NCBI GenBank assembly: GCA_019096065.1
Contig: JAGUCH010000003.1
Span: 10,912,001 to 10,976,000, forward strand
Reading direction: 5' to 3'
Length of the DNA: 64,000 nucleotides
DNA from: Paracyclopina nana
Lineage: Eukaryota; Arthropoda; Copepoda; Cyclopoida; Cyclopettidae
Below are positions 2,839 through 63,567 of this stretch, in pieces. The translations under genes and the position numbers were made by a program. The notes beneath the pieces are model-generated. The model saw only the letters and a list, made by a program, of their open reading frames with translations, ran no database searches and was not told the DNA's origin. Position 1 is the first letter of the stretch. The number at the start of each line of letters is the position of its first letter.

Positions 2839-4109
2839 TTAAATAATTACACAACATCCACCCTTATCTTCAGCCTTTTGCTGCACCGAACCAGTTTGGG
2901 CTCGAATTTTCGTTCCTCCTGCAGACTCCGGAGCTGCCGGAGCAGATTTCTTCTTCATGCTACTCAACTCATTTTTCAGCTTTTCCTGCATCTCCTCCAT
3001 GGTCTCGGCGTTCTTTGCCGTGCCTTCGCCAGGCTCTGGTTTGATAGAGGCCTCTGACTCGGTTGCAATCGTGACAACCTTCTTTTCTGGTACTGACTTC
3101 ATTTCGGCATCTGGAATTTCGAGCTCAGCTGGATTTTCTTTAGCCTCCTCCATGATTCCTTCTGAAGCCTCTGGTGTTTTGTCTTTGGGAGCCTCGGGCT
3201 CCTCTGCTGATGAGCTAGGCAATTCCGTCTCCTTCTCCTCACTTTCCTCAAGTTTTGGCTCTAATTGTGAATTCGATTCCTCGACTGAGTCAAGCACTTC
3301 TGACTCCTTTTGAGTAGCATCATCTGTTTGTGACTCTGTTAGGTCGACCTCGTCGTCTGGAGGAGCCTGGATCACTTCAGGAAGCTGGGCCTCGACATGA
3401 ATGACACTTTGTACCTCTTCGTTGCTATCCTCATCAGACTCAATAGGTGGAGGTGGAGGTGGTGGAACCTCAGCAGGTGGCAAATCATCTGAAGCTAATC
3501 AAACATTGTTTGAAAAAACCAATGACCTCAACTTATCTTAATGACTTTTTTACCTTCAAAACTTGAAGAGTCAAACAAAGGGAGTTTGCTAGAGATAACA
3601 GTCGAAAGAGCGTCATCCACGCTAAATCCAACCTTGTTGTCTCCGATCTGCTTGTGGCAAATGAATCCCCTCGGATCCAGGAGCAAGAGTGCATGCTTAG
3701 CAGTGCCTTGATTGCTATCCAGAAGGTCAAACTTTCGTGTCAATGTGAGGGAGTGGTCGGCCAACAAAGGAAAAGGTAATTTATTGTGCAGGCCATTTTC
3801 GTCCTCGAGACTGGAGGCCGTCCATGCCACATGAGTCTCACCAGAATCCGTGGAACAGGCCAAAATCTAATCAAATAAACTTTAAGCAAGCAGGAATAGT
3901 ATGGGAAAACCAAAATTTGGTACCTGACAGCCCTGACTCATAAAGTGTTCGTGCTGTTCTGCAAAAGCCAGCAACTCGGATTTGGCTAGAGGGGTGAAGT
4001 CACCCGGATAAAAGATCAAAAGCACGTGCTTCCCCTGATACTCTTCTAGGCTAATTTTTTTCAACTCACCATCCGGCATGAGTGCCGAGATGGCAAAAAA
4101 GTCGGACAT
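2839..4109 (-). CDS. Peroxiredoxin-like pseudoenzyme with acidic tail and CaaX box
   Basis: Exons 4109-3924, 3866-3554 and 3494-2839 join in phases 0 and 1 across introns of 57 and 59 bp, giving 384 residues. Residues 1-165 follow the typical 2-Cys peroxiredoxin fold: MPDGELKKISLEEYQGK, LLIFYPGDFT, ACSTDSGETHVAW, PLLAD, LLLLDPRG and a VGFSVDDAL segment. The active-site pattern PxxxTxxC reads P-GDF-T-PL-A, so the peroxidatic Cys is Ala42. The conserved Arg before the next strand is His120, and the C-terminal VCPAGW resolving-Cys segment is absent. Peroxidase activity is therefore not expected. From about residue 167 a poly-Pro run leads into roughly 210 Glu/Ser/Pro-rich residues, ending GGCCVII. 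CVII is a CaaX prenylation box with an adjacent Cys that could be palmitoylated. I infer a membrane-tethered scaffold or sensor. The ATG used is the first in frame after an upstream stop at 4208; it gives a slightly short N-terminus, so an extra 5' exon is possible. Confidence 0.8.
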
Positions 4110-4662: not shown

Positions 4663-4992
4663 CTACCTAATCTGCGCATTGATGGATGCAACAAATTCGG
4701 GCGCTATTGCATTGAGTTGAATGATGAACTCGGTGCGGTCAGAGGGATTCCAGCAGCCGTGCCATTTGGAAAATATCTTCATTTGGCACTCAAACACGCT
4801 CGGTCCGTCATTGTTTTTACTTAAGGACATTTGAGTCATTGTTGACATTAGGAATTCAAGGCTTTGATCCACTTCATTGGGCTTGTCCTGCATAATGAGC
4901 GTTCTCGCGAATTCCTGCTTTTGTTCCTCGTTCCAATTTCGAAACCAGGACAAGGCACAAGCGATTTCTGTCCTCGATTTCCCGGAGGCCAT
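4663..4992 (-). CDS. C14orf119-like protein (DUF4508 family)
   Basis: A single exon of 109 residues from ATG 4992 (MASGKSRTEIACALSW). The frame is open upstream to an earlier ATG at 5043, which would add 17 residues (MTFSKLLFALQ...). Diagnostic parts are an N-terminal CxLxWFxNW motif (CALSWFRNW), a central SVFECQMKIFSKWHGCW block and a C-terminal RTEFIIQLNAIAPEFVASI block. These correspond in order and spacing to human C14orf119 (HWFANW, SIFECQLHLWDQWFRGW, RNEFVRQLE...PDFVAKF). The molecular function of this family is unknown to me; it is a small soluble protein found widely in animals. The gene is divergent from alpha-tubulin, with about 500 bp between start codons. Confidence 0.85.
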   Translation of the reverse strand: MASGKSRTEIACALSWFRNWNEEQKQEFARTLIMQDKPNEVDQSLEFLMSTMTQMSLSKNNDGPSVFECQMKIFSKWHGCWNPSDRTEFIIQLNAIAPEFVASINAQIR

Positions 4993-5495
4993 CTCAAATT
5001 CTCCTCGAGGCTGCAGCGCAAACAAAAGCTTGGAAAAAGTCATCAATGATAGCAACAGCCGGAATCTCGCCAAGTCATTTGACGAAAATTAAAAAGAAGC
5101 CTCACAAATGTTTATTGACATTGCGGCGTTGCGAGGGCTTTTTGTGGAGAAAGTGTACGAAAGTTGTCAGAAACAGCCCAAAAATCGCGTGACCTTGGAC
5201 AAACTTGCCTTAGTACCAGCAACGCTTTTCTCTCCCTGAGTGAAATGAAGCTGCCATGAAAACCAAATGCTCCTCATTTGAAATTAAATAGAATATTGTG
5301 CATCCTAAAACCAGTGATGAAATCATTACTCAGCATATTTTCGATAAATTCCACTTGTGCAGGTTAATTTCGCGAAAAAAGGCTTCATTGTTATTTCATG
5401 ATGCGGAAAGGCGCTCCTTACACTTCATTATTTGGAATCGTTCCGTTGGCCGCGGTTTCCGAATAAATTCTACGACTTGACAAAAATCATTCAAA
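4993..5495. promoter_or_regulatory. Shared divergent promoter region (DUF4508 gene / alpha-tubulin)
   Basis: The two start codons face away from each other at 4992 (minus) and 5496 (plus). The interval must hold both promoters and the tubulin leader. I saw no canonical TATA box at a convincing distance. Short ORFs here lack coding character. Confidence 0.5.
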
Positions 5496-7867
<2,372 letters not shown>

Positions 7868-62286: not shown

Positions 62287-62562
62287 ATGCTGTCTGGTGT
62301 CCGTCGACCGTCCGTCGCGCCGCCGTCCTCCGCCGCGGCTGTTTATGCGAGCGCCCCTAAGCACCGAACTCCGGAATGGATAGATTCTGTACGTGCGCAC
62401 CGCGAACAAAGACTTCAGTGGACAACGGAGCGCTGTCAGACCAACACCATGCTACTACTGCTATCCTGAATCACGGAGCATTAGCGGATCTTCAGGATGA
62501 CCAGAGTGAGCCACAGCCATCACCAGATCGGAGCCTCGCGGAGGCTGCCACCCCGAATCACC
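62287..62562 (+). promoter_or_regulatory. GC-rich leader/promoter of the SERTA gene
   Basis: A sharp rise in G+C and CpG begins near 62300 (CCGTCCGTCGCGCCGCC). This marks the 5' UTR or promoter just ahead of the coding exon. No TATA box was convincing. Confidence 0.45.
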
Positions 62563-63567
62563 ATGCTGGCCTCGAGCCCCAAGTACAAGTTGAAGGAGGA
62601 GCGCAAGCGCGTGCTCAAGCTGTGCGTGAAGAAGCTGCGGAGCATCGAGGACCCCGAGGCCTTCCTCTCGAGGTCGGTGCTGATCAACAACACGCTCAAG
62701 AGGCTGCAGTCGGAGGTGCGCGAGGAGAAGGCCGAGAAGAAGATGGTCACCTACTCGCCCAGCCCCTACTCCTTCTACGCCATCGAGAAGCTGGCCTACG
62801 CCGAGAAGATGGAGGACGACCTCGGCGAGGACCAGACCGTCTTCGAGGCCGACGACGAGGCCGAGGAGGAGACCTCGGCCTCCTCCAGCTCCGAGGACGA
62901 GGATGACAGCTCATCCTCATCCTCGGCATCCTCCGAGGCCGAGGAGGAGAAGAAAGTGGTTGCCGAGGCTGCCGCTGCTGCTGCTGCCATCGGCCCGAGC
63001 AGCCTCGAGGACGAACTTTTGTCAGAGGTCTACATGCCGCCGCCCAGGCTGATCCCGCACATTGAGGACGACGTGGAGGACGAGGCCATGGCCATAAAGA
63101 GGCCGTCCACCCCCGTGCCGTGGGAGGCGGCCTCGAGCAACAACAACCCCTCCGCGGAGGCTGTGATCAAGAGTAGCGAGTGCTGTGATACAGAGGCCGA
63201 CATTTGGTCCGAGGCCGTGAGGACAGAGTGCTGGACCAAGCCCGCGGCCATCAACAACATTAAGAACGCGTGGCCTCAGCTCGACTGGCCCACCTACATG
63301 CCCTCCAGCTCCACCAACGGGAGCGAGGCCGTGACGGTGGCGGCCTCGAGCGCCTCATCAGCCTCCGATCAGTTCAATCCAAATATTTGCGTGCCCACTG
63401 CCACCTCAGAGAACACTTGTCACCAGAGCAGTGCCAATAAGGAGAACATTGTGACGTATCATCATCCCACGGCGGACAAGTGCTACTCCTGCGGACAGTC
63501 CTCGCTGTTTCAATCTGAGCTGCAGTCTGTGGTATTCAACAGCCTCATAGCCTCGCTGGAAACGTGA
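62563..63567 (+). CDS. SERTA-domain protein (taranis/SERTAD-like)
   Basis: A single coding exon of 334 residues from ATG 62563 (ACCATGC context). An in-frame ATG at 62497 would add 22 residues. Residues about 8-55 form the SERTA domain: KYKLKEERKRVLKLCVKKLR, then PEAFLSRSVLINNTLKRLQ. A Ser/Glu/Asp-rich acidic stretch and poly-Ala follow (about 88-145), then a Ser/Asn-rich region. The C-terminal block YSCGQSSLFQSELQSVVFNS plus LIASLE resembles the conserved SERTAD tail. SERTA proteins are nuclear co-regulators linking cyclin/CDK, E2F and PHD-bromodomain factors; Drosophila Taranis acts in cell cycle, sleep and homeotic gene regulation. Codons are strongly G/C-ending, unlike the surroundings. 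A distant 5' exon encoding a longer N-terminus, as in long Taranis isoforms, is possible. Confidence 0.88.
   Translation: MLASSPKYKLKEERKRVLKLCVKKLRSIEDPEAFLSRSVLINNTLKRLQSEVREEKAEKKMVTYSPSPYSFYAIEKLAYAEKMEDDLGEDQTVFEADDEAEEETSASSSSEDEDDSSSSSSASSEAEEEKKVVAEAAAAAAAIGPSSLEDELLSEVYMPPPRLIPHIEDDVEDEAMAIKRPSTPVPWEAASSNNNPSAEAVIKSSECCDTEADIWSEAVRTECWTKPAAINNIKNAWPQLDWPTYMPSSSTNGSEAVTVAASSASSASDQFNPNICVPTATSENTCHQSSANKENIVTYHHPTADKCYSCGQSSLFQSELQSVVFNSLIASLET

Follow-up and report, generated by a model that had tools for sequence, protein, structure and literature searches.

The window, i.e. the whole stretch of 64,000 nucleotides that was analysed, carries a predicted gene on its minus strand, whose three exons are separated by two introns of GT-AG type. 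The gene starts at 4109, and its spliced reading frame encodes 384 amino acids. The features of the gene model are the following, in window coordinates:

3924..4109, minus strand: exon 1, from MSDFF... to Q62, the first third of a peroxiredoxin domain, containing the dead peroxidatic site
3984..3986, minus strand: the GCC codon of Ala42, at the position of the peroxidatic cysteine according to the alignments
3867..3923, minus strand: intron 1, 57 bp, GT-AG, phase 0
3554..3866, minus strand: exon 2, the remaining peroxiredoxin domain from I63 to about E166, including His120
3693..3695, minus strand: the CAT codon of His120, at the position of the catalytic arginine according to the alignments
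in exon 2, minus strand: PLFDSSSFE, a family-specific stretch located where the segment with the resolving cysteine would follow
3495..3553, minus strand: intron 2, 59 bp, GT-AG, phase 1
2839..3494, minus strand: exon 3, an acidic, proline-rich, low-complexity tail and the stop codon
3427..3465, minus strand: a run of prolines followed by IESDED (residues 177-189) in the tail
2947..3006, minus strand: ETMEEMQEKLKNELSSMKKK, where the tail is most conserved; its counterpart in the relative P0001 is a predicted helix
2842..2856, minus strand: the C-terminal CCVII of the gene model, a CaaX box (CVII) with an extra cysteine before it

A small DUF4508 gene (PF14969, E 1e-19; 4663-5088, minus strand) is found just upstream of this gene. 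On the plus strand, the window also holds a long single open reading frame at 6497-7867, which by eye looks like an alpha-tubulin, and, at 62485-63567, an open reading frame whose product has a SERTA motif (PF06031, E 1.5e-13).

In the Pfam search, residues 11-133 matched AhpC-TSA (PF00578) at E 2.9e-25, with a score of 89 bits where the cut-off is 26, and Redoxin matched as well. The top sequence matches in PDB were typical 2-Cys peroxiredoxins from schistosomes, trypanosomatids and mammals, the best being 5jly (E 3e-33). Alignments to these matches place Ala42 opposite the peroxidatic cysteine and His120 opposite the catalytic arginine. A preliminary description of this DNA had proposed the peroxiredoxin fold together with these two substitutions, and the Pfam matches, the PDB alignments and the family counts given below all bear it out. 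It had also stated that the segment with the resolving cysteine was lost. This agrees with Pfam, which found no 1-cysPrx_C domain (PF10417, the domain of the resolving cysteine) in the 384-residue protein. That a canonical C-terminus is concealed nearby was ruled out, as a genome search for PF10417 gave five other places and none at this locus.

Relatives were searched for with residues 1-170 of the protein, resulting in two proteins. P0001 (424 amino acids) is 60% identical over 86% and has the same layout, running from Met to CaaX box in one frame. P0002 (466 amino acids) has its start cut and covers the last part of the domain, followed by the tail and the CaaX box. A further relative, P0023, covers the second part of the domain and the tail. 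With P0001 as the query, the distant P0003 was the only protein obtained besides P0001. A profile search with the domain gave 543 proteins, and the best 120 of these 543 were used. In total 123 retrieved proteins were aligned to residues 1-168, and a protein was assigned to the family if it had an identity of 0.525 or more across the aligned part and a score above 60. The family thus defined has 34 members, 53-86% identical, and 88 peroxiredoxins serve as the comparison set; P0065 is in neither. P0059 and P0062 share an identical exon-1 part and were counted separately.

The 34 family members are mostly single exons from environmental assemblies, and the two catalytic sites are therefore usually observed in different fragments. 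Among the matches listed, the window protein and P0001 are the only molecules where both catalytic losses are seen together. None of the 34 listed members has nr or uniref as its source, and three of them (P0018, P0023 and P0024) carry an ncbi tag. The sets of genome contigs and viral contigs gave 42 and 190 pattern matches, respectively, without a confirmed relative.

Position 42 is occupied by Ser in four, Ala in two and Thr in one of the family members listed (Cys 0/7); the comparison peroxiredoxins listed have Cys in 83 of 88, Trp in four and Asp in one. At position 120 the listed family has His in 23 and Asn in four members (Arg 0/27), and all of the comparison peroxiredoxins listed have Arg (85/85). 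The threonine of the PxxxT/SxxC motif (position 39) was found as Asn in four, Thr in two and Met in one of seven family members among the matches listed. The site of the second arginine is Phe143 in the window protein, and among the matches listed this position is Phe in 25/25 of the family against Arg in 39/65 of the other peroxiredoxins. Cys155, present in 14/23 of the family members listed, is Ser in the window protein, and no new cysteine is common to the whole family among the matches listed. We defined a position as family-specific when at least 85% of the family had one residue which occurred in at most 20% of the other peroxiredoxins. Among the matches listed there are 26 such positions, many of them in the regions 100-120 and 133-143.

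By sequence and by fold, the latter modelled on the relative P0001, the 384-residue protein belongs to the peroxiredoxin superfamily. Judged by its residues, it qualifies neither as a catalytic peroxiredoxin nor as a typical 2-Cys peroxiredoxin. The peroxiredoxin mechanism is established, and with these active-site residues lost, the window protein is very unlikely to carry out the known peroxidase chemistry. A different catalytic activity of the domain could make use of Lys119, His133, Cys61 and Cys66, which are conserved in 27/27, 25/26, 7/8 and 9/10 of the family members listed, respectively. However, Cys61 and Cys66 are also present in ordinary peroxiredoxins (22/88 and 31/88 among the matches listed), and since the family has Ala, Ser or Thr at position 42 and His or Asn at position 120, there is no single new nucleophile at the old site. 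We therefore give a new activity very little probability.

Two observations were made on proteins outside the family. P0065, a more distant peroxiredoxin fragment of 102 amino acids, also has His at the position of the catalytic arginine (ARHALLLLN), and may be either a family outlier or a separate loss. Four AhpC-like proteins (P0055, P0061, P0063 and P0076) have Trp at the position of the peroxidatic cysteine (FTFVWPTE, FTFVWVTE) with the arginine retained, and may form another, unrelated group of Cys-less peroxiredoxins.

The exon joins of the gene model were compared with the fragments found in the relatives. In 6/6 exon-1 fragments (P0054, P0058, P0059, P0062, P0064 and P0066) the similarity ends right after Q62. 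Six exon-2 fragments begin with unrelated residues followed by FQ(I/V)L, as read-through of the acceptor AG would give. The 22 exon-2 ends listed in relatives run into Gly after (F/L)E in 18 cases, which is expected from read-through of the GT at the intron-2 site, into Arg-Gly in two cases and into the tail in two. P0002 and P0094 continue past the intron-2 position into a proline-rich acidic tail like that of the window protein, and this supports the splice junction of intron 2. P0001 is without interruption at both intron positions, and its contig is therefore probably a transcript. The frame of P0023 includes about 20 residues that are possibly unspliced intron 2.

For residues 97-150, 12 of 54 columns are invariant in 22 different rows among the matches listed. 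At least 12 invariant columns were obtained in only 1/200 simulations with a homogeneous rate, and the likelihood ratio test for rate heterogeneity gave 47.5. At the level of the aligned sequences the invariant columns show uneven constraint, which is a measure distinct from dN/dS.

That the gene is a pseudogene, or that the model is wrong and the tail exon comes from another transcript, has next to no probability, and we consider it ruled out. The frames and splice sites of the window gene are intact, relatives have domain and tail in one open frame (P0001) or span the intron-2 position (P0002, P0094), and their columns are conserved. The preliminary description had argued against a pseudogene from the frames and splice sites; the frames, intron positions and conserved columns of the relatives lead to the same answer, and the acidic exon very probably belongs with the domain in the same transcript.

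The three-dimensional structure of P0001 was predicted as a monomer with AlphaFold2. The pLDDT per ten-residue block was 91-98 over residues 11-160; the mean of the whole model was 69.6, with low confidence over most of the remaining tail. A helix at 361-376, covering the motif L-[KR]-x-E-L-[ST], had a pLDDT of 86 and 75 in its two ten-residue blocks. The model of P0001 is thus a confidently predicted peroxiredoxin fold with a mostly disordered tail carrying one helix. Foldseek searched with this model returned human Prx1 first. The target-normalised TM score was about 0.85-0.88 among the best and mostly 0.73-0.88 among the 50 matches listed, and the query-normalised score was about 0.35 because the tail is without counterpart.

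The tail of the window protein begins at residue 167 and comprises 218 residues, of which 26% are Asp or Glu and 11% are Pro, with a net charge of -36. It has no aromatic residues in these 218 positions, and cysteine only as the pair in the terminal CCVII. The criterion used for a CaaX box was Cys, two aliphatic residues and any residue. This pattern is seen in CVII as well as in the relatives' CVIS, CVIS and CILM, and the second cysteine is found in 4/4 complete C-termini (window protein CCVII, P0001 CCVIS, P0002 CCILM, P0023 CCVIS). P0009 matched the CaaX pattern too, and was left out of the count since its end lies in a presumed intron read-through. The motif L-[KR]-x-E-L-[ST] occurs in 4/4 tails, 35-55 residues before the end. 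Proline-rich stretches followed by stretches rich in Glu, Asp and Ser are also present in P0001, P0002, P0023 and P0094; apart from the helix and the C-terminal motif, the tails resemble one another in composition and not residue by residue. The proline- and glutamate-rich acidic tail ending in CCVII, which had been described before, is well supported as a genuine fusion, and the orthologues with an intact CaaX box that were sought after it are P0001, P0002 and P0023.

No Pfam family was found above the cut-off in the tail. Pfam includes a model of paralemmin, and with the window tail, P0001, P0002 and P0023 no paralemmin match was obtained at E up to 1. The possibility that the tail was copied from the end of another gene was ruled out, as a search of the genome with the last 57 residues gave no match other than these residues themselves.

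According to the CaaX rules, Ser or Met at position X suits farnesyltransferase, and Ile is the most favoured residue of neither this enzyme nor geranylgeranyltransferase. The Ile at the end of the window protein was therefore counted against a lipid anchor. The cysteine preceding the CaaX box is, by its position in the sequence, a possible palmitoylation site. Matches to the prenyltransferase beta-subunit family (PF00432) were obtained at three genomic sites, which speaks for the anchor.

Another conceivable role of a charged, disordered tail is to keep client proteins soluble, and the preliminary description had given a redox-independent chaperone as its example of a function. Some 2-Cys peroxiredoxins are chaperones, one of them as a reduced decamer, according to the accessible part of PMC6368585, which holds no passage on Cys-less forms. 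However, the window protein has no sequence feature specific for chaperones, and a holdase would not need a membrane anchor. We find this function improbable.

The genome searched has 92 Mb in 10 contigs. TTAGG-repeat matches numbered 5073 on one strand and 4205 on the other, with 0 in the reversed control, and the places listed lie on a single contig. As a telomere repeat, TTAGG is indicative of an arthropod. The five other loci with PF10417 are C2, C3, C4:8.25 Mb and two neighbouring ones at C4:3.58 Mb. By resemblance, C2 and C3 are Prx1-like and Prx4-like, and C4:8.25 Mb is Prx3-like; these three loci of 2-Cys type retain VCPTE and Arg. The two adjacent genes at C4:3.579-3.581 Mb are Prx6-like and apparently a tandem duplication. 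As canonical peroxiredoxins are present in the genome, the dead copy is an addition, and with five loci carrying the canonical C-terminal domain the antioxidant function need not rest on it. The Prx3-like gene has an intron at the place and in the phase of intron 1, and C2 and C3 lack it; this pattern speaks for an ancestral gene that already had the intron. In the tree, the window protein and P0001 were joined firmly (100/100) on a long branch of 1.74; with the branching around this pair unsettled, the tree singles out no canonical peroxiredoxin as the parent.

Since active peroxiredoxins of cytosolic type are present in the genome, the dead subunit might still join an active 2-Cys peroxiredoxin in dimers or decamers and tether or tune it at a membrane. 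The fold is retained in the model of P0001, and Trp77 is retained in 19/19 family members among the matches listed. Against such mixed oligomers stand the loss of the C-terminal segment and the low identity between the window protein and the canonical members of the genome, which is 32-39% in the matched pieces. We regard the mixed oligomer as unlikely. An equally doubtful scenario is that, in an arthropod lineage, a peroxiredoxin evolved into a membrane adaptor that is non-enzymatic and doubly lipidated, docks on rings of active peroxiredoxins and thereby places peroxide removal or signalling at the membrane. It would be a pseudo-peroxiredoxin family whose dead subunit occurs naturally.

The explanation we favour, with reasonable rather than strong confidence, is a lipid-anchored pseudo-peroxiredoxin, i.e. 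a duplicated eukaryotic 2-Cys peroxiredoxin that is no longer a peroxidase and whose domain has been kept as a binding module. On the evidence of the sequences, the relatives included, the peroxidatic cysteine, the catalytic arginine, the second arginine and the segment with the resolving cysteine have all been lost. The last-but-three cysteine would be farnesylated or geranylgeranylated, and the cysteine before the CaaX box perhaps palmitoylated. With this terminal pair lipidated, the protein would sit at the cytosolic side of a membrane, where an isoprenoid, and possibly a fatty acid as well, would hold it. The tail would then serve as a negatively charged spacer, long and flexible, with a proline-rich docking stretch, and the family-specific face of the domain around the former active site may keep a partner protein near the membrane. 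Thus, for the membrane-anchored non-enzymatic protein first proposed, the loss of the catalytic residues stands, whereas we only infer prenylation and membrane binding. Points that weigh against the lipid-anchored reading are the small number of relatives found with full-length queries, the joint loss of both catalytic residues in just the window protein and P0001, and tails that are alike mainly in composition. As the relatives share the design, this looks like a real family of non-enzymatic and probably membrane-bound proteins.

Pseudoenzymes are well known among kinases and other classes. In the open-licence literature, searched by titles and the starts of abstracts, we found no natural peroxiredoxin family without both catalytic residues, and neither a prenylated peroxiredoxin nor one ending in a CaaX box. 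The family is real and conserved and, as far as this literature search reached, undescribed. It would be a natural case in which the binding roles of the peroxiredoxin fold are set apart from its role as a peroxidase, and would offer a clean test of whether the scaffolding and chaperone functions of peroxiredoxins stand without the chemistry. It would furthermore add a new architecture to the prenylated proteins. Environmental assemblies contain many relatives, and some of them (P0035, P0054) are named only as AhpC, by automatic annotation, so checks of the active site matter when peroxiredoxins are counted in metagenomes.

Among the known systems, the typical 2-Cys peroxiredoxins (Prx1, Prx2, Prx3 and Prx4) have fold and sequence in common with the window protein over residues about 11-150. 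In contrast to them, it lacks the peroxidatic cysteine, the catalytic arginine and the segment with the resolving cysteine, and adds the acidic tail with the CC-aaX end. A precedent for binding to rings of active peroxiredoxins is given by Tsa1 and Tsa2 of yeast, paralogous peroxiredoxins that can mix in one decamer (PMC13038412, accessible part). There, both natural partners are active and without lipid anchors, and the Cys-less forms are engineered.

MIEN1 (C17orf37) resembles the window protein in that a fold of redox type is joined to a CaaX box: it has a thioredoxin-like fold, and is geranylgeranylated at its C-terminal CaaX box and located at the plasma membrane (PMC6738349, accessible part). 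It differs in having only 115 amino acids, in being selenoprotein-W-like rather than a peroxiredoxin and described as retaining a redox-active motif, and in being without an acidic tail. Paralemmins are anchored in the membrane by prenylation and palmitoylation of a C-terminal cysteine cluster (PMC3405040, accessible part), which is the type of anchor we infer for the window protein; the same part states that none was found in fruitfly or nematode. Unlike the window protein, paralemmins are without a peroxiredoxin domain. MIEN1 and the paralemmins are the nearest designs, and the window protein belongs to neither family.
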